A stretch of DNA of 22,564 nt from positions 1 to 22,564 of IMG/VR virus record IMGVR_UViG_3300008107_000425. One strand, written 5' to 3'. The notes below the pieces were generated by a model that saw only the letters and a list, made by a program, of their open reading frames with translations, was not told the DNA's origin and did no database searches. Positions 5,972-22,524 of the stretch are shown in pieces. Numbering within the stretch: position 1 is the stretch's first letter; each line of letters begins with the position of its first letter. This DNA is from a virus. Both the position numbers and the translations under genes were made by a program.

Positions 5972-6298
5972 TTATTTACACTTCATTTCAGACCAATTAT
6001 CAGATGATATATTATAAATTAACATATTTAATTTATGAAATTTCTGATAATGAATGTCTGTTTCAGAAAATCTATCTGAATTATTATGACTATGAAATAA
6101 ATATTTTATACTAAATTTATTTTTTATTTTTAAATAGTCAATAGGTGAAATTAAAAAAAAATCTTCAGATTGTGGATGTTTATTCTCTAATTCTATAAAA
6201 AAATCTTCATTTTTATCTGACACAATAAAACCACAAACTTCGGTTTTTTTGCTTAAACATATAGATTTTATATATTGTTTTAAATTATTATTTATCAT
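5972..6298 (-). CDS. K: JAB/JAMM metallopeptidase-like tail assembly protein (gpK N-domain-like)
   Basis: With the start at ATG 6296-6298 this is a 108-residue JAB1/MPN+ domain. It shows the upstream glutamate in KTEVCGFIV (E20) and a metal site FHSHNNSDRFSETD (H69, H71, S78, D81). Lambda gpK has such a domain fused to an NlpC/P60 peptidase; here only the JAMM part is present. Only six residues separate the second histidine from the serine, whereas the usual JAMM spacing is seven. The frame is open further upstream to an ATG at 6367, which would add 23 residues (MKIIYLIMELYL...). That stretch does not resemble the family and would overlap gpL by 80 bases. The inner start overlaps gpL by 11 bases and begins directly before the domain, so it is preferred. 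Expected role: maturation or assembly of the tail tip. The family call is strong; enzymatic activity is not established. Confidence 0.85.
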   Translation of the reverse strand: MINNNLKQYIKSICLSKKTEVCGFIVSDKNEDFFIELENKHPQSEDFFLISPIDYLKIKNKFSIKYLFHSHNNSDRFSETDIHYQKFHKLNMLIYNISSDNWSEMKCK

Positions 6299-7349
6299 TG
6301 TTAAATGAAAAAGTAGCTGAAAAAGCTCCAAAAGGTAAAGCTCCATTATCAGATAAATAATCTTCAAATCTCAATAAACAACCTCTTAAAGTTTTAGAGC
6401 ATCTATCTTGTTTCCAAACATTAGTATTTTTATCTGGAAATTTTCCTAAAATATTGTTGGATACGCAAACGTAAAACGTTTTAGGTTTATTTAAAAAATT
6501 TACGTTTCCAACGTCTTGTTGAGCATCTAGACTTGAAATCGTATCCACATAAACAAAATCTCCACTATTATATGTAGTGGCGGGAGACCATTCGCCTTTA
6601 TAAGTTATCGTAGATAAATTATATGAATTATTTGCTAAATCTGGTTTATAAGATGATAAAAATGTTTTATCATTTTCATCCGCTACTGGTAAACCTGGAT
6701 CTGGAGAACTTGCGTTTCCTCCCCAACCAGATTCTTTAAAATATAAATAACTTGACTGTAACTTATTTAAAGGAGTAGAATTTATTTGAGGCCCTTTAAA
6801 AGCAGGAGTATTTCCATAATTACATCCATAGCATCTATAATTCCAAGAACAAGTATCGTTAGTAATTTTTCTTGTTGGTAAAGATAAATTCTCTATATCA
6901 ACTTTAGTAACTAATTCTAACTCAACGTTTTCTTTGTTTTCTGATTTTTTTAAATTTATAATAAATTTATCATAAGCAACATAAGTATTAAAAGCAGAAA
7001 CGCCAAAAGGATTAATACCATCAGTAAAATTAACAGTATCCAGATCTTTTCCTAATATTTTTTTTCTAAAAACTTTTTTACCTATCAAATCAGCGCGATC
7101 TTTCAATATCTTAGAAAAATAATTATTTATATTGGCAATTTTTAAAATTGGCCTACTTTGCTTTCCATCTGATGAAGTTTCGAAAGATGAAAATTCACAA
7201 GGTATAAAAATATATTGATTTCCTTGAAATATTAAATTAGATGAAAAATTCTTAGAACCATGAAAACGAAGATAGCCTTCATTTGATTCAAGTTCAATTT
7301 CAAATAAATCTAAAATGAGATAATTATTTAATTTAAATAAAGTTTTCAT
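6288..7349 (-). CDS. L: Minor tail protein L (gpL-like, probable Fe-S cluster) with an inserted sugar-binding-like module
   Basis: This 353-residue protein (lambda gpL is about 230) matches gpL at both ends. The N-domain has LFEIELESNEGYLRFHGSKN and later SRPILKIANINNYF. The C-terminus ends with the hallmark DRCSKTLRGCLLRFED followed by NGALPFGAFSA. Lambda gpL binds an iron-sulfur cluster through cysteines of its C-terminal domain. Candidate ligands here are C167, C173, C176, C317 and C324; which four are used cannot be told from sequence. Between the two cysteine groups lie about 140 residues instead of a short loop. Part of this insert (about 251-316: GEWSPATTYNSGDFVYVD, then FYVCVSNN and NTNVWKQD) resembles CBM5/12 chitin-binding modules. 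The gene overlaps the upstream 906-residue protein as ATGA and the gpK-like gene by 11 bases. Role: tail tip component next to gpJ. Confidence 0.9.
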   Translation of the reverse strand: MKTLFKLNNYLILDLFEIELESNEGYLRFHGSKNFSSNLIFQGNQYIFIPCEFSSFETSSDGKQSRPILKIANINNYFSKILKDRADLIGKKVFRKKILGKDLDTVNFTDGINPFGVSAFNTYVAYDKFIINLKKSENKENVELELVTKVDIENLSLPTRKITNDTCSWNYRCYGCNYGNTPAFKGPQINSTPLNKLQSSYLYFKESGWGGNASSPDPGLPVADENDKTFLSSYKPDLANNSYNLSTITYKGEWSPATTYNSGDFVYVDTISSLDAQQDVGNVNFLNKPKTFYVCVSNNILGKFPDKNTNVWKQDRCSKTLRGCLLRFEDYLSDNGALPFGAFSATFSFNNDK

Positions 7350-15603: not shown

Positions 15604-18600
15604 TTAATTTCTTATTCCTGCTAATGAACCACCAAAACGTTTTTCTTTTCTAATCGTATCTAAAACAACATCATAAACTTTGCTATTCAAGCTTTGTGAC
15701 AATTCAACATCTTGTTGTGCATAACTTGTGCTATTAGCTCCAATTTCAATCTTACCATCTCTTTGTACGGTAGTATTGAAATTAAATGAATTACTAGCAT
15801 TAGTATTATTATTAATTGTGCTATTATTTCCAATTGCGCCACCATAACCAACTCCAGATGAAGCGCCACCTATTGCATAACGTTTAACTATTGGATTATC
15901 AACCAATCCACCAGTAGCATAAGCTGGAACAGTATCTGATAAACGTGAACCAATTAAACCACCAGATTGTTTTCCAAAAGGCGATCCACTAAAATCTGTT
16001 CTTAATGCTAGTTGTCCATATTCATCTCCTATTTTTTGAGGAGTACTTGGTTTATTACCAAATTTATTTACTCCAGCAGATATGCCTAAACTTACAGCAG
16101 CACCAGCTAACGATCCGATTATTCCAGCCATTTGTTGTTTTTTGGCTCTTCTCTTTTGTCTATCAGCTTCTATTTCTGCTCTTCTTTGATCTCTCAATTC
16201 ATTATATAGTTTACTTTCTTCTAAACCAAAACTAGTCATATTAGACTCCATAGAAGAAATATCATCAAAATTATTTGTAAAAGTTCCTCCCGCAGCAAAA
16301 CGAGGAGCCATAGAAAAATTCAATTTATCAAGTGAAGCTGGACCACCCATTGCCATTACCGCATTTCTATTCAATACATATTCACCATTCTCAAGTAATG
16401 CTGGATATTTATCTCCAGAACCTACTCCAGAAATATACATACCAGATTGAGCGCGAATTACTCCTCCTCTTTGTTTAGCGGCAACTGGTAAATTAGAAAC
16501 TCCAAGATTTCCTAATATTCCATAAACCGCAGATTGCATTAATGTTGTGCTTATGCTATCCAAGAAACTTGAAGCTATACCCATTAAAGCGCTTCCTAAA
16601 TTATCAGATTCTCTGATAGCGGCTTTTATTCCATTAACCAATCCATCAGCAAACATTTTTGGAAGATCTTCGCCTAAACGACCAATCATCAACTCTGATT
16701 CAGTTCTCAAGTTATCAAATCCTTTAACAACTCCATATTTAAAAGAAGTAGAGCGTTCTGCCATAATAAGCTCTTGTTTATTTAATCTATCATTCAATTC
16801 TATTTGTGTTATTTTACCTTCATTTATTTCAGTTTGAACTGTTTTAAGTTTTTCTAATGTTTTTACTCTTTGTTCTTCTTGTTTTGGATCAGCAAATTTT
16901 GTTGATTCTAAACTCGTAATGGCCTGATTCAATGAAGTTAAATCTTTGATTTCAATACCTGTATTACGTCTAGCTTTAGATCTTAGACTATCAGCTAAAA
17001 TAACATTTCCTTGACTCTGAAGTCTATCTGCATCCTTTAAAGCATTTTCATTTTGCATTTTTATTACTTCGCTATAATCTGCTTGTGTAGATTTAGAACG
17101 AGTAATTTCAGTATCTATAAGTTTTTTTTGTAAAATTTGATTTCTAAAATCAGCTTTACCTTGAGCTTTTCCTGCTACACTCATTCCAAAATAATTAGCC
17201 TCATCAGATTGTCTACGCTCTATAGCGTCTATCTCTAAATCTAATGTATTTTTTCTTTGTATTTCTAAGCGTTCTCTTTGAGCGGTTAAAGATATTTCAT
17301 CTTTAATTATATTTGATTGAAGTAAAAGAGTTGTACTTTTTAAATTTTGCAAAAGAATATCTTGATCAATTAATTTTTTTTGATCTCCATTATTTGATTT
17401 TCTTTCCGCTTCGGTGGCTTTATAAATTGCATAAGCTTCTTTTAATTGCTGTGATTCTTTAGGCTGTAGAGCGGATGGCCCACCCAAAGCAGATGATTCT
17501 GCAAAAGCTCCAACAGATTGCGATCCACTTAACAATCTTTCAAAAGGAGCAAAATTTCCTTTCAACATCTCTGCTATTGCTGGTTTTATACTTTGTTCAA
17601 TGTATGTAGGATTTTGCGAACTTTCTAATAAAGTTTTATAATTTTGTTTTACAAAATCTATATTAACTTTTCTTTGTTCATCTTCAGTTTCTCTTGCGAA
17701 TTTAGATGTTTGAGATTGCGCTTTTCTAGCTGCAATCTCTAAAGGATTTGCAACCCCTTCCATCATAGAAACTTGAAAATCATTTAAAGCATCAAGAAGT
17801 TTTTGAGAAAATTCAGATTGTTTTATCAATTGATTACCAGAAGAAATATCTTTTATAATTTGCGCTTCTAACTTATTTCTTGTAGAATATAATGAGGCAA
17901 GAGCTTTTGCTTGTTGAACAGCTTGTTTAGTTGCATTATCACTGCTACTAATTGTATTTATTATGTCAGGCAAAGTTCCTTCTAATAAAGCTTTAGTTAA
18001 AGATTCTTGAACAGTCTCTATTTCAGCAGCTGTAGCCTTACCTCCTAATTGTTTTTCTGCAATTTGTTTGGCTATACTTTTAGCTTGGTCAACTGACGCT
18101 TGCGAAACAACATCTATTTCTTGCATAAAAACACCACCAACTCCCGCAGATCTTGGAACTTTAACTCTTTCAGTTCCTTTTTTATAGCTTTGTAATTGTT
18201 TAAGCTGCTCTTGATTTAATCCTAAATTAGCTAAAGCTTTTCCAGCAACAGCTTTTTGTAGTCCGCTTTCTATTTTACCACCTTTAATCAAAGTTGCAAA
18301 TTCTAAACCAGATGTTAGTTTTTTCTGCTCTTGTTCAAAATTTCCCAAAACAGAATTTAAAGCTTCAACTCCGCCTTTTGTTTTAGATAGTTCTTCTGCT
18401 AATTTAACATCTTTTATGTCGTTAAAAGAATTAGTTAAATTTCTACTAGCGTTTTCCAATTGAGTTGATGAAGCTCCAGAAGCCAAAAGTTTAGCGTATT
18501 CTTCTTGAGCTTGAATGTATTTTTGACCAGCACTCAAATTTTCTTGAGTTTTACTCTTTTGTTCATCTGTTAATTGAGTTAATTCTTCAACGCTTAGAGA

Positions 18601-21600
18601 AGAAGCTTGAACAGCAGAAGTTAATCCTATTAAACTTCCAATTAAACCTCCTACTACTGCACCGGGAATTCCCGCTACTGCACCTCCTATTCCCGCGCCT
18701 GTTGAAACTGAACTTAAACCAGTACTTAATCCACTTTGCAAACTTCTTTCCGTAGAAGTCATTTCAGTTCGTTTTTTATTTCCAAAGTAAGCTTGCTCTA
18801 TAAAACCAGCCAACAATGGGCCTCCAATCGATATGGCAGTACCTGCTCCTTGCAATGTTCGGGAAAGCGCTGTAAGTCTAGAAGTTCCTCCTCCAGATCC
18901 TCCTTGCGTTTGATTAGCAACTGTTTGATTAAAATTGTTAGCCGATGCTTGAACTTTCGATATTCCAGAATTTAATGCTATTTTAGCTTTTTGAGACCCT
19001 TGCTCTACAACATCTGCAAAAGAAGCAGCAAAAACACTAACATAATCATAAGCATATTTTATTTTATTAACAATATCTTGACCAATTTTTTCTGTTTCAG
19101 CTTGTAATTGATTAGGATCAAAACCTGATTGAGTATTTTGAGATTGATTTCCAGCTTTATTTTTCGCAATTTTATTTTTTGTAGATTTAAGATTTCCAAA
19201 ATTAGGAATAAATCCTTTACTCATCAATCCAGCAGCTTTTTGCCCTCTCATTGAATCGCTCAATGCATTACCTAAACCACCATGATCAGCAATCGCGGAA
19301 CTAAATGTTGGTTGACTGCTATTTCTAATATGAGGGAAAGGCTTTGTATCGAAAATGGCCTTGTTGCCGCTCATGCTTTCTTCTAAACCCATTACTGCTT
19401 GTTTATATGCAAAGTTAGGAATAAAACCTTTTGCAGCAGCCATTGACAAAAATGCAGGATTTTTTACATAACTGTTTAATAAATTATTTGTTTCTGCGGA
19501 TAATCCTTTTACAAGATCAGGACTACTTTTAGCCATTTGAGAATAGCTTGTTCCTGCAAGTTGAGAAAAAGTTTTTCCAAATGCGGAAGGCAATTGATTC
19601 TCATGTCCTAATTCATTAAATGTAATTATTGATTCTTTTATTTTAGCTGCACCAGCAGGATTAGCTTTGGCAAATCGTTCGTATTTGTCATTTAAATTTC
19701 CCGAAATAGAACCAGTTAAATTTGCTTTTGGAAAACCTTTGTATTCAAGAGCTATGTCTCCTAAAAACGCATCAAATGCTGATTGTTTTTGATCTGTTCC
19801 AGGTTGCAAGGCATAACCCCTAATCAACTGATCTTTAATTTTTGATTGGGAAACTAATTGCATCGCTTTAAATACAAAATCCTCATACAATGGAGCGAAA
19901 ATATTATTATCTCCAACCTTATCTGCACCTTTAGCACTACTTCTAAAATTAACTTGTCTAAAAGTATCTACGTCACTTGCTTTAGATATTCCCAAAGCAG
20001 GTTGAATAGCATCAAAAGCAGGATTGCCAAATTTTTTAAACCAAGGAACTCTTATTGCACTAGTAGGAGGAGCAAAATTAGGAATAAAGCCAGAACCATA
20101 TACTTTATCTTGAGCAAATTGCATTGTTATTTTTCTTTTCAAAATATTTTTTTTCTCTGAATCTGGTAAACCATTTAATAAATTATTTTTAGCTGTAGTT
20201 TTTAAACTAGAAATTAATGAAGTTTGCGTAACTCTAGAAGAATCAGAACCATCACCTATTATTTCTGTATAATAAGGTCTTATAAATAAATCGCCAAGAA
20301 GCCCTTCATTTGAAATTAAAGATGATTTATCATTTAATTTTATTCTTCTTGATGATGATCCTTGTTTTGGCAAATAACCATAATAATTTTCCCCTAAATG
20401 ATTAATTATTTTACTTATATTTTGAGAAGCTGTATGACCATAACCAGCATGAGCATCAGCAAATGAATTTGATTTATAAAGCCTTGGATTAAAACCTTTA
20501 TTAATGGGCTTAAATCTAACTTCATTAAAATCTATTGCTGCATTATAAGCAGGAGAAACTCCAATATCATTTCCGACACTAGCTTCAAAACCTCTACCAA
20601 TAGCAAATTGATCTATTTTTTTGATAGCAAAATTCGGAATAAATCCATTAAACATATATGGATCAACACCTGTTCTGCTTATAGCATTTTGTCTATGAGC
20701 GCGACCAGCTTTTGATGCAGCAGGAGGATTAATAAAAGGTTGAGCAAAACCGGGAATATATTTTACATCTTCCGCAGTATTCATTACCCCACCAACAGGA
20801 GACGAAACAACTCTGCCGGGAGTATATCCACCAGCTTGTGCGCCAACAACTTCCGCCATTCTTGTCGCATTTGGAATATATCCTCCTGCGCGAGTAACTT
20901 GCAATCCACCAGATCCTTTTACTCTTACTCCTTGATTAGCTAATTGAGAAGCAAGTTGTTTAGCAAGAGTTGACTGCATTTGATATTCTGCTGTCTGCTG
21001 TCTAGCTATTTGAAGCAATAATTGCGCCTGTGCAGCTTGATTACCCATTAGCCCAGCAAGAGCTTGTGATGCTGGCCCTTGTTGTTGCATAATTTGCAAA
21101 ATAGATTGTTCAATATTTTTTCTATTTTGCGTTTCTGTAGTAATACCAGCAATCTGAGGCAAAGCCTGACTAAGATAAGTAAAAGAATTTTGTATTAATT
21201 TAAAAAGCGTAAAAAAAGCTGCGATAGCACCGGGACCAGCTATTACATTACGAATACCTTTTAATAAACCATTTGCAAAACTAGAACCAACCCCTTCTCC
21301 CTCAAGAACTTCATTCATGCTTTCAACGAATGACTTTAACTGTTCTGTACCATATTTAGCTAATGGTTCAAATGTTACTTTACCAATATTATTTGCTAGT
21401 TGCTGAGTTGAAGTGGCTGTTTGCTTTAATAAAGCATCTAAAGTTTGATTTAATTTTGCAGTAGCGATTTCAGCTTCATTTGTAGCCGCCGCTCCTCTTT
21501 GTAAAGCTCCAGCATATGTGCCTTGCGTCTTATTTAAATCGTTAACAATAGCTTTTAAAATGTTAACTTGATAAACACCTGCAACTTGCTCTGATAATTG

Positions 21601-22524
21601 CGCTCTTTGAGCGTCTGCTAGACCTTTATAAGCACCAGCGAAATTTTGTAATATTTGAACTGCTGGTAAAATATTTCCTTCAACATCTCTAACAGCAATA
21701 TTAAAAGCTTCTAATTGATCTAGAGTCTCAGTACGTTGCAAACGAGTGAAAATTGTTTTTAATGCGTTACCAATTACCGCTCCACCTCTTGCAGTGCTTT
21801 GTTGTGCAGAAGTAACTAATGCGTTTAACTGATCAAGGCTAACACCTGCTTCTTGCGCTGCTTGTCCAGTACGAGACAAAGCTTCAGCCAAATCGCCAGC
21901 ACCTACAGCGTAATCTTGTTCAACTGCAACTAGCTTATTTAATATTTGAGTTGTAGTTACTCCAGTTATAGCAAATCCATTTACAGTAGAAGTCAATGCA
22001 TCAACAGCATTTGCAGTACTAATTCCCGCTAATCTTGTTAATGTTAAAGCGTCTTTTGTTCTTTGTAGAGTTTCTTCAGCTTTTAAACCTTGACGAGAAA
22101 ATTCTAAAGCCGCTTTAGAAGCATCATCAAAAGAAGAAGCTGTTTGTTTGCTTACGCTAAATAATTCTGTACTAAATTTTTGCAACTGACTTGTGGTTAA
22201 TCCGAATACACGATTAATATCTGCAAGATTTTTTTCTACATCAATAGTTACATTAGCTAACTCTTTAAAACTACGAATAACACCACCAAGAACAGCAGTA
22301 GAAGCTCCGAATGCAATAACGCGAGCATTAGAAGCTGCGAGTGCTGCTTCGAAGTCTTTAACATCGCCCGTCATTCTGCCAAGAGGCTGAGAGAAAGCTC
22401 GTTGATTAACAGTTAGATTAAGTTGATTATTCTGAGCGAATCTTTGATTATACGCTTGAACACCAGCTTGAATAGAAGCGGTTAATGCTGCTTGATTGGC
22501 TGCGACATTAATTTGAACTGCCAT
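15604..22524 (-). CDS. Tail tape measure protein (TP901/PhageMin_Tail-type N-domain), 2306 aa
   Basis: This protein fixes tail length and probably assists DNA passage. Residues ~75-330 form a TP901-type tape measure domain (VEKNLADINRVFGLTTSQLQ, LEFSRQGLKAEETLQRTKDA, RGGAVIGNALKTIFTRLQ). Hydrophobic stretches follow at about 424-447 and 1228-1250, and a glycine-zipper-like one at about 1269-1302 (GIGGAVAGIPGAVVGGLIGS). Residues ~1300-1950 are largely helical or coiled-coil. The C-terminus carries GVGSGDKYPALLENGEYVLN (about 2020-2045), a common tape measure element, and ends KEKRFGGSLAGIRN. The middle (about 547-1110) is odd: four GFIPNF(A/G) heptapeptides at 627, 812, 1033 and 1104 bound non-helical inserts, two of them nuclease-like. 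No lysozyme or peptidase motif was recognised. At 1.5 angstrom per residue the full length would span about 346 nm. The start ATG at 22522-22524 follows AAATAAGAAAT. Confidence 0.93.
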   Translation of the reverse strand: MAVQINVAANQAALTASIQAGVQAYNQRFAQNNQLNLTVNQRAFSQPLGRMTGDVKDFEAALAASNARVIAFGASTAVLGGVIRSFKELANVTIDVEKNLADINRVFGLTTSQLQKFSTELFSVSKQTASSFDDASKAALEFSRQGLKAEETLQRTKDALTLTRLAGISTANAVDALTSTVNGFAITGVTTTQILNKLVAVEQDYAVGAGDLAEALSRTGQAAQEAGVSLDQLNALVTSAQQSTARGGAVIGNALKTIFTRLQRTETLDQLEAFNIAVRDVEGNILPAVQILQNFAGAYKGLADAQRAQLSEQVAGVYQVNILKAIVNDLNKTQGTYAGALQRGAAATNEAEIATAKLNQTLDALLKQTATSTQQLANNIGKVTFEPLAKYGTEQLKSFVESMNEVLEGEGVGSSFANGLLKGIRNVIAGPGAIAAFFTLFKLIQNSFTYLSQALPQIAGITTETQNRKNIEQSILQIMQQQGPASQALAGLMGNQAAQAQLLLQIARQQTAEYQMQSTLAKQLASQLANQGVRVKGSGGLQVTRAGGYIPNATRMAEVVGAQAGGYTPGRVVSSPVGGVMNTAEDVKYIPGFAQPFINPPAASKAGRAHRQNAISRTGVDPYMFNGFIPNFAIKKIDQFAIGRGFEASVGNDIGVSPAYNAAIDFNEVRFKPINKGFNPRLYKSNSFADAHAGYGHTASQNISKIINHLGENYYGYLPKQGSSSRRIKLNDKSSLISNEGLLGDLFIRPYYTEIIGDGSDSSRVTQTSLISSLKTTAKNNLLNGLPDSEKKNILKRKITMQFAQDKVYGSGFIPNFAPPTSAIRVPWFKKFGNPAFDAIQPALGISKASDVDTFRQVNFRSSAKGADKVGDNNIFAPLYEDFVFKAMQLVSQSKIKDQLIRGYALQPGTDQKQSAFDAFLGDIALEYKGFPKANLTGSISGNLNDKYERFAKANPAGAAKIKESIITFNELGHENQLPSAFGKTFSQLAGTSYSQMAKSSPDLVKGLSAETNNLLNSYVKNPAFLSMAAAKGFIPNFAYKQAVMGLEESMSGNKAIFDTKPFPHIRNSSQPTFSSAIADHGGLGNALSDSMRGQKAAGLMSKGFIPNFGNLKSTKNKIAKNKAGNQSQNTQSGFDPNQLQAETEKIGQDIVNKIKYAYDYVSVFAASFADVVEQGSQKAKIALNSGISKVQASANNFNQTVANQTQGGSGGGTSRLTALSRTLQGAGTAISIGGPLLAGFIEQAYFGNKKRTEMTSTERSLQSGLSTGLSSVSTGAGIGGAVAGIPGAVVGGLIGSLIGLTSAVQASSLSVEELTQLTDEQKSKTQENLSAGQKYIQAQEEYAKLLASGASSTQLENASRNLTNSFNDIKDVKLAEELSKTKGGVEALNSVLGNFEQEQKKLTSGLEFATLIKGGKIESGLQKAVAGKALANLGLNQEQLKQLQSYKKGTERVKVPRSAGVGGVFMQEIDVVSQASVDQAKSIAKQIAEKQLGGKATAAEIETVQESLTKALLEGTLPDIINTISSSDNATKQAVQQAKALASLYSTRNKLEAQIIKDISSGNQLIKQSEFSQKLLDALNDFQVSMMEGVANPLEIAARKAQSQTSKFARETEDEQRKVNIDFVKQNYKTLLESSQNPTYIEQSIKPAIAEMLKGNFAPFERLLSGSQSVGAFAESSALGGPSALQPKESQQLKEAYAIYKATEAERKSNNGDQKKLIDQDILLQNLKSTTLLLQSNIIKDEISLTAQRERLEIQRKNTLDLEIDAIERRQSDEANYFGMSVAGKAQGKADFRNQILQKKLIDTEITRSKSTQADYSEVIKMQNENALKDADRLQSQGNVILADSLRSKARRNTGIEIKDLTSLNQAITSLESTKFADPKQEEQRVKTLEKLKTVQTEINEGKITQIELNDRLNKQELIMAERSTSFKYGVVKGFDNLRTESELMIGRLGEDLPKMFADGLVNGIKAAIRESDNLGSALMGIASSFLDSISTTLMQSAVYGILGNLGVSNLPVAAKQRGGVIRAQSGMYISGVGSGDKYPALLENGEYVLNRNAVMAMGGPASLDKLNFSMAPRFAAGGTFTNNFDDISSMESNMTSFGLEESKLYNELRDQRRAEIEADRQKRRAKKQQMAGIIGSLAGAAVSLGISAGVNKFGNKPSTPQKIGDEYGQLALRTDFSGSPFGKQSGGLIGSRLSDTVPAYATGGLVDNPIVKRYAIGGASSGVGYGGAIGNNSTINNNTNASNSFNFNTTVQRDGKIEIGANSTSYAQQDVELSQSLNSKVYDVVLDTIRKEKRFGGSLAGIRN
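19600..19893 (-). other. PD-(D/E)XK nuclease-like insert inside the tape measure protein
   Basis: Residues about 878-975, inside the spacer between the second and third GFIPNFA motifs, read LYEDFVFKAMQLVSQ (E881 in a predicted first helix), then QSAFDAFLGDIALEYKGF with D918, D923, E927 and K929. A helix glutamate, a following acidic residue, and an E-x-K on the next predicted strand, then a helix-rich tail, are the order expected for the restriction-endonuclease-like fold. This is a fold-level reading by eye. Chance occurrence of E-x-K is easy, so the call depends on structure prediction. Confidence 0.45.
20092..20625 (-). other. Second globular insert in the tape measure protein, possibly a decayed nuclease-like domain
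   Basis: This covers residues 634-811, between the first and second GFIPNFA motifs. It begins GRGFEASVGNDIG (E647), then AYNAAIDFNEVRFK (D665), then NSFADAHAGYGHTASQNISK with D690-A-H692 where a D-x-K would be expected. The spacing resembles that in the neighbouring insert, suggesting a related fold with the lysine replaced by histidine. About 110 further residues, including IRPYYTEIIGDG and LPDSEKKNILKRKI, are unrecognised. Confidence 0.35.

Follow-up and report, generated by a model that had tools for sequence, protein, structure and literature searches.

Exchangeable modules set between conserved GFIPNFA-type peptides in a phage tape measure protein

Introduction

Why does a phage tape measure protein (TMP), the ruler of tail length, interrupt its ruler-like helical sequence with a long stretch in which one short peptide, GFIPNFA, keeps returning? 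The question is raised by a 22.5-kb record representing a fragment of a virus genome (IMG/VR virus record IMGVR_UViG_3300008107_000425, positions 1 to 22,564); this whole stretch of 22,564 nucleotides is referred to below as the window. An original prediction, made from the letters of the window, suggested that about 565 residues between the TP901 domain and the helical C-terminal half may consist of independent globular modules slotted between fixed peptide borders. The peptide itself could, it proposed, be a linker docking each module to the tube, a recombination-tolerant boundary or a maturation cleavage site. We followed up these proposals by comparing the TMP with its relatives in viral contigs.

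Results

The window encodes a TP901-type tape measure protein

The TMP of the window is an ORF of 2306 aa on the minus strand, matched by Pfam PhageMin_Tail (1e-27, aa 124-316) and by the tape measure families of PHROG (best match 9e-48). The genes downstream of it resemble the lambda-like J, I and K/L (K-like) genes and minor tail families and, since lambda-like tail tip and minor tail genes follow the TMP, the source phage is probably a siphovirus. By its N-terminal domain as well as its position among tail genes, the protein belongs, as read from its sequence, to the TP901/PhageMin_Tail-type TMPs. Its features are as follows, in window coordinates.

15604..22524, minus strand: TMP ORF, 2306 aa (Pfam and PHROG matches)
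21085..22392, minus strand: TP901/PhageMin_Tail domain region, aa 45-480 (Pfam at aa 124-316 and alignment to relatives)
20863..20883, minus strand: GYIPNAT, degenerate motif, aa 548-554, start of the N-border (a GFIPNFA-type copy stands here in many relatives)
20647..20862, minus strand: N-border segment, aa 555-626, including YIPGFA at aa 589 (close relatives whose passengers differ keep 84-96% aa identity)
20626..20646, minus strand: GFIPNFA border motif, aa 627-633 (motif scan, DNA identity switch)
20092..20625, minus strand: passenger 1 (type 3), aa 634-811, weakly PD-(D/E)XK-like (13-member cluster and alignment; putative fold)
20071..20091, minus strand: GFIPNFA border motif, aa 812-818 (motif scan, DNA identity switch)
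19429..20070, minus strand: passenger 2 (type 0), aa 819-1032, PD-(D/E)XK-like (158-member single-linkage cluster; dN/dS 0.23-0.33)
19408..19428, minus strand: GFIPNFA border motif, aa 1033-1039 (motif scan, DNA comparison)
19216..19407, minus strand: C-border segment, aa 1040-1103 (close relatives retain 91-98% aa identity, even those with extra passengers in front of it)
19195..19215, minus strand: GFIPNFG border motif that closes the array, aa 1104-1110 (motif scan, DNA comparison)
15607..19194, minus strand: C-terminal ruler half, aa 1111-2306 (mostly unrelated to the ruler of relatives with 95% identical TP901)

Elsewhere in the window, the K-like JAB-type tail gene (5972-6367, minus strand) has a TTG start and shares 80 bases with the minor tail gene before it (6288-7349, minus strand). 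In a close relative (L475) the TMP is apparently split into two ORFs by a frameshift inside TP901.

A border peptide recurs in the window and across viral tape measures

GFIPNFA is found in the window TMP at aa 627, 812 and 1033 and GFIPNFG at aa 1104, with a degenerate copy at aa 548 (GYIPNAT) and YIPGFA at aa 589. The motif positions of the original prediction were right, its GGYIPNAT starting at 547 being the GYIPNAT of 548, and the spacers are, as it had claimed, unrelated in both length and content. Five matches of the G[FY][IVT]PN[FAT] type were observed against 0.0005 expected from composition shuffles. The predicted region of about 565 residues must be narrowed, with aa 634-811 and 819-1032 being true passengers but aa 555-626 and 1040-1103 conserved borders.

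Back-translated GFIPNFA was detected in at least 119 stretches of viral contigs, often with two to four copies per giant ORF, and scans with GFVPNFA and GYIPNFA were likewise plentiful (counts among the matches listed). The reversed peptide AFNPIFG, scanned against viral contigs as a control, gave 22 matches in total and was repeated in no ORF. Among the matches listed, two or more copies were present in 241 of 274 motif ORFs of at least 250 aa, and the TP901 TMP domain in 128 of 136 5'-complete motif ORFs of at least 600 aa. To remove the bias of a motif search, ORFs were also gathered by TP901 profile search; this motif-blind sample comprised 81 ORFs, of which 74 carried at least two copies, and of the seven with fewer, three or more end at a contig edge right after TP901. 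Together, the 128 of 136 and the 74 of 81 bear out the expectation that the motif is enriched in other tape measures. The same motif-blind sample provided 72 TMPs with one to six passengers, representing 38 known types and 17 new ones.

Over 916 motif copies the logo extends to A-[AS]-x-G-[FY]-[IV]-P-N-[FY]-A. All codons were alike in 2 of 194 identical-peptide pairs of motif copies within one ORF, and such pairs had 4.2 of 7 codons in common against 3.7 expected from codon usage. Since synonymous codons vary at the motif, selection acts on the peptide and not on the DNA. The same codon variation speaks against the motif being a recombination site that works at the DNA level, and this reading was rejected. 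The notion of a recombination-tolerant boundary holds as a description of where swaps are located, but the conserved thing there is a peptide rather than a DNA site.

Tblastn searches of 50,697 cultured-phage records gave no match for either window passenger, the arrays of two relatives had matches confined to the TP901 region, and the C-border had no match among these records. In Microcystis phage MaeS the TP901 domain is present and the motif absent; here (L328, 7001-9309) TP901 is divided between two ORFs that flank a third, possibly through an intron, a frameshift or an insertion. A motif scan of 257 Gb of bacterial and archaeal genomes returned chance-level matches among those listed, where the only genuine prokaryotic-genome array was on a 3960-bp MAG contig (L344). 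The clade is apparently uncultured and not seen as a prophage among the matches listed, and a literature search turned up no paper describing the motif. The N-borders of L008 (aa 590-650), L043 and L226 contain IPNFxFGxGxRGTMVAN-SEFxVPNFAG, in which PNFA-type peptides overlap an element resembling (P)GE(Y/F)VVN, a motif frequent in tape measures, and the border peptide may have originated from such an element.

Passengers are arranged in an ordered array

The array begins at a fixed point, about 74 or 154 aa past TP901, and runs in the order N-border, one to six passengers, C-border, last motif and ruler half. The N-border (about 75-83 aa) is flanked by two motif copies in most lineages, the C-border measures ~56-72 aa, and each of the one to six passengers per TMP is 100-800 aa long. 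Among the motif ORFs in the matches listed, 390 passengers of 95-600 aa formed 87 single-linkage clusters. Total passenger length in complete ORFs varied from 50 to 1511 aa, with ruler lengths of 1146-1391 aa for the middle half of complete ORFs, and the two lengths were uncorrelated (rho 0.18, p 0.21, n=52). In L187, aa 552-2533 hold about six large modules, including by eye a metallopeptidase-like (HExxH) and a kinase-like one, for which neither Pfam nor PDB gave confirmation.

Whole passengers are swapped at the motif

Eleven TMPs with 93-97% identical TP901 carried seven unrelated slot-1 types (3, 5, 8, 15, 24, 73 and 86). At the entry border of 50 pairs of these 11 TMPs, DNA identity was 0.83-0.99 before the motif and 0.91 within it, and 0.27-0.38 from 30 nt past it; the exit border of slot-1 swaps mirrors this switch. 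Between the window TMP and its relatives, the shift in identity at the 21-nt motif takes place within a few codons. The window and five of these relatives (L015, L007, L084, L105 and L176) have 93-97% identical TP901, 84-96% identical N-borders and, where the sequence reaches the array end, 91-98% identical C-borders, and slot 1 differs among them, its modules being unrelated; in L015, L084 and L176 the nuclease-like module is followed by an extra type 9 module ahead of the C-border. With non-homologous modules in one slot and DNA homology that stops at the motif, the predicted independent modules between fixed peptide borders are upheld. The position of the swap points would mean either that joins elsewhere are not tolerated or that short homology is used.

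The ruler half of the window (15604-19194, minus strand) shares only 23-41% aa identity with the rulers of phages whose TP901 is about 95% identical. DNA homology of the window ruler to close relatives ends at the last motif, and from these alignments the ruler itself seems to have been exchanged there.

Type 2 passengers are 75% identical between TMPs whose TP901 is only 37% identical, and type 10 passengers 80% identical between TMPs with 44% TP901 identity. Judged by such alignments, passengers move between distant lineages and array positions.

Selection was compared as dN/dS at matched synonymous divergence (pS about 0.4). Values were 0.04-0.07 for TP901 and mostly 0.23-0.42 for passengers. 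Between the window and close relatives type 0 gave 0.23-0.33; type 9 gave 0.31 and type 3 gave 0.42-0.69. By this measure the passengers are constrained and evolve several times faster than TP901, as expected for functional proteins that are either engaged in conflict or subject to relaxed constraint.

Many passengers resemble nucleases

Type 0 is the largest cluster, with 158 members including window aa 819-1032, and occurs in 52 of the 72 arrays of the motif-blind sample; clustering was by single linkage, and the window-like subfamily is joined through intermediates at 26-28% identity. Across 51 sequences of 21% mean identity, the G, F, E and D of GxxFE...D...(D/E)xK were invariant and the K conserved in at least 90%. 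The GxxFE, D and (D/E)xK residues were also the invariant ones in an alignment of 28 arrays. A strict E-D-(D/E)xK order was present in 102 of the 158 members but, after shuffling, in 3 of 390 modules from all clusters, and passenger 2 of the window carries the signature as YEDF, FDAF and LEYK. From this ordered E, D and (D/E)xK the type 0 passenger is read as a putative PD-(D/E)XK nuclease. The type 0 profile found no relative of the nuclease fold in PDB, so that it is the conserved residues on which this reading is based. Type 5 also has the E-D-(D/E)xK signature and aligns to type 0 by hhalign with 96.8% probability (E 2e-10); against type 3 its probability was 24%. In passenger 1 of the window (type 3) the corresponding residues are GRGFE, AIDF and FADAH, the catalytic Lys being replaced by His, and this passenger weakly resembles PD-(D/E)XK, with a putative fold.

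Both passengers of the window itself look nuclease-like; in relatives, disparate domains (SNase, P-loop, PD-(D/E)XK-like) are found within the one TMP family. Type 8 is staphylococcal-nuclease-like (SNase Pfam 1.9e-9, with thermonuclease as its PDB match) and type 2 is a P-loop NTPase with an invariant Walker A (P-loop match 8e-7). Single modules gave weak matches to HATPase and GNAT models, and the type 17 module of about 570 aa (L118, L023 and L038) resembles a GHKL-type ATPase (HATPase) with weak Pfam support. Most of the 87 clusters had no Pfam match or known relative, and PADLOC reported no noteworthy defence family. PDB searches with type 0, type 5, kinase-like and ADP-ribosyltransferase-like modules returned no meaningful match, and the kinase, ADP-ribosyltransferase, HAD and zincin labels given by eye to single modules are accordingly leads only.

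Structure prediction for a relative places the motif on probable linkers

The array of a relative (L004) was modelled by AlphaFold from 28 sequences and displayed folded domains, in blocks mostly of 70-94 pLDDT. The only internal segments below 50 pLDDT, residues 87-94 and 356-362, are motif copies, which supports a flexible linker and disfavours a continuous coiled coil; the suggestion that the motif is a linker gains ground from this predicted structure. When the L004 model was compared by Foldseek with PDB and BFVD structures, there was no significant match, and hence none to the alpha-beta-beta-beta-alpha-beta core of PD-(D/E)XK nucleases. The continuous coiled coil that would speak against modules is not what was predicted for L004, and the model of window aa 541-1130 (590 residues, 12 sequences only) reached a pLDDT of only 40.

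Discussion

The array architecture, its conservation in the clade, the swaps of whole passengers, the purifying selection on them and the conservation of the peptide were all established here by sequence comparison. We consider it probable that they reflect a cassette array in the TMP, whose cargo of putative enzymes would be delivered with the genome and whose motif would serve as an inter-module linker. Independently folding, mostly nuclease-like passengers would stand in series between N-border and C-border, joined by the peptide, and would ride on the TMP, which leaves the tail ahead of the DNA and would take them to the periplasm or cytoplasm at injection. Once there, they could act at the start of infection, attacking host or competing nucleic acid or countering entry-site defences. 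The peptide would be a functional linker for threading, docking or release, and would permit the exchange of any module without harm to the ruler. Several folded domains of 20 kDa are hard to fit in a tail tube, and the passengers may be unfolded there. During injection the lambda TMP adjoins inner-membrane proteins and the defence nuclease SNIPE (PMC13190303). Because TMPs exit during injection, entry of the passengers along with the DNA is plausible.

Next in plausibility comes a polyprotein, in which GFIPNFA would be a protease site and the modules would be separated in maturation or after entry. The motif is indeed short, highly conserved and located in disordered linkers after small residues (A-[AS]-x), and other injected multidomain proteins have been inferred to be processed by their own metallopeptidases (Iyer et al., PMC5512222). 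Cleavage at all copies, however, would also cut TP901 off the ruler, which makes full cleavage in the virion less likely; moreover, peptidase-looking modules are few and the conservation flanking the scissile bond would be unusually long. We therefore regard a polyprotein as unlikely.

Still less probable is that the modules are structural or DNA-binding parts inside the virion, for instance a nuclease fold holding the DNA end, and never delivered as enzymes. The TMP and the genome end adjoin in the tail, and the presence of type 0 in 52 of 72 arrays would fit such a part. The invariant residues, however, are the catalytic E, D and K, the slot takes unrelated folds (SNase, P-loop), and passengers evolve several-fold faster than TP901.

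Selfish insertions that parasitise the TMP gene, such as homing endonucleases or inteins, might likewise account for sharply bordered, nuclease-like cassettes at fixed sites. We hold this to be very improbable, as Pfam gave no Hint or homing-endonuclease (LAGLIDADG, HNH) match, either for the TMP or for 109 module representatives, many modules are something other than nucleases, fixed borders form an array instead of an interrupted domain, synonymous sites of the border DNA vary and nearly all members of the clade have arrays. A module-free ruler, of ordinary variable sequence with a low-complexity repeat, can practically be dismissed: TMPs do diverge fast with frequent repeats, and the window model is of low confidence, but for the relatives this is refuted by conserved catalytic residues, Pfam enzyme domains and swapping at the motif.

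A delivered cassette array has partial parallels. The TMPs of mycobacteriophage TM4 and phage T5 (pb2) carry a peptidoglycan hydrolase or peptidase domain and are alike in having an enzyme domain, here putative, within a TMP and acting at infection. In those TMPs, however, one conserved cell-wall enzyme lies inside the ruler, whereas the passengers here are serial, swappable, mainly nuclease-like and placed before it. The closest concept is that of the polyvalent proteins of phages and conjugative elements, in which diverse enzymatic domains are strung together and which are read as injected with DNA (Iyer et al., 2017, PMC5512222). Like the TMP array with its putative enzymes they unite diverse domains in one large protein, but their carriers are not TMPs (the text of that paper makes no mention of the tape measure) and no fixed border peptide is described for them, while the carrier here is the tail ruler.

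Effectors of the Sle1 type in contractile injection systems (CIS) have a TMP-related carrier with highly variable functional domains, one variant being a presumed nucleic-acid enzyme, and are loaded and ejected by a tail-like machine (PMC13277306). They share with the array, as read here from sequence, a TMP-like carrier with exchangeable domains, but the variable domain of these actinobacterial CIS is C-terminal, after a coiled coil, and there is no internal array or border peptide. Phages are known to shuffle protein fragments, and TMPs have been flagged as mosaic by sequence, although coiled coils and split ORFs prevented the confirmation of any genuine recent TMP mosaicism (Smug et al., 2023, PMC10684548). 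In contrast, recent TMP swaps with sharp borders are seen here, so that recent and precise cassette exchange inside TMPs, suspected and left unconfirmed in that large survey of phage mosaicism, now has an example.

Swaps probably change which putative enzymes enter the host cell alongside the viral DNA, and the passengers would constitute an effector class that may enter the cell ahead of any phage gene expression. About 87 module families, most of them unannotated, are now catalogued as candidates for nuclease or counter-defence activity, and the coupler peptide might serve for loading proteins onto phage tails. More tentatively, the TMP may be a general delivery rail, onto which a peptide coupler would load dozens of enzymes serially and from which the virion would inject chosen effectors, mainly nucleases, before its genome; phages of the same species would then differ mainly in their payload.
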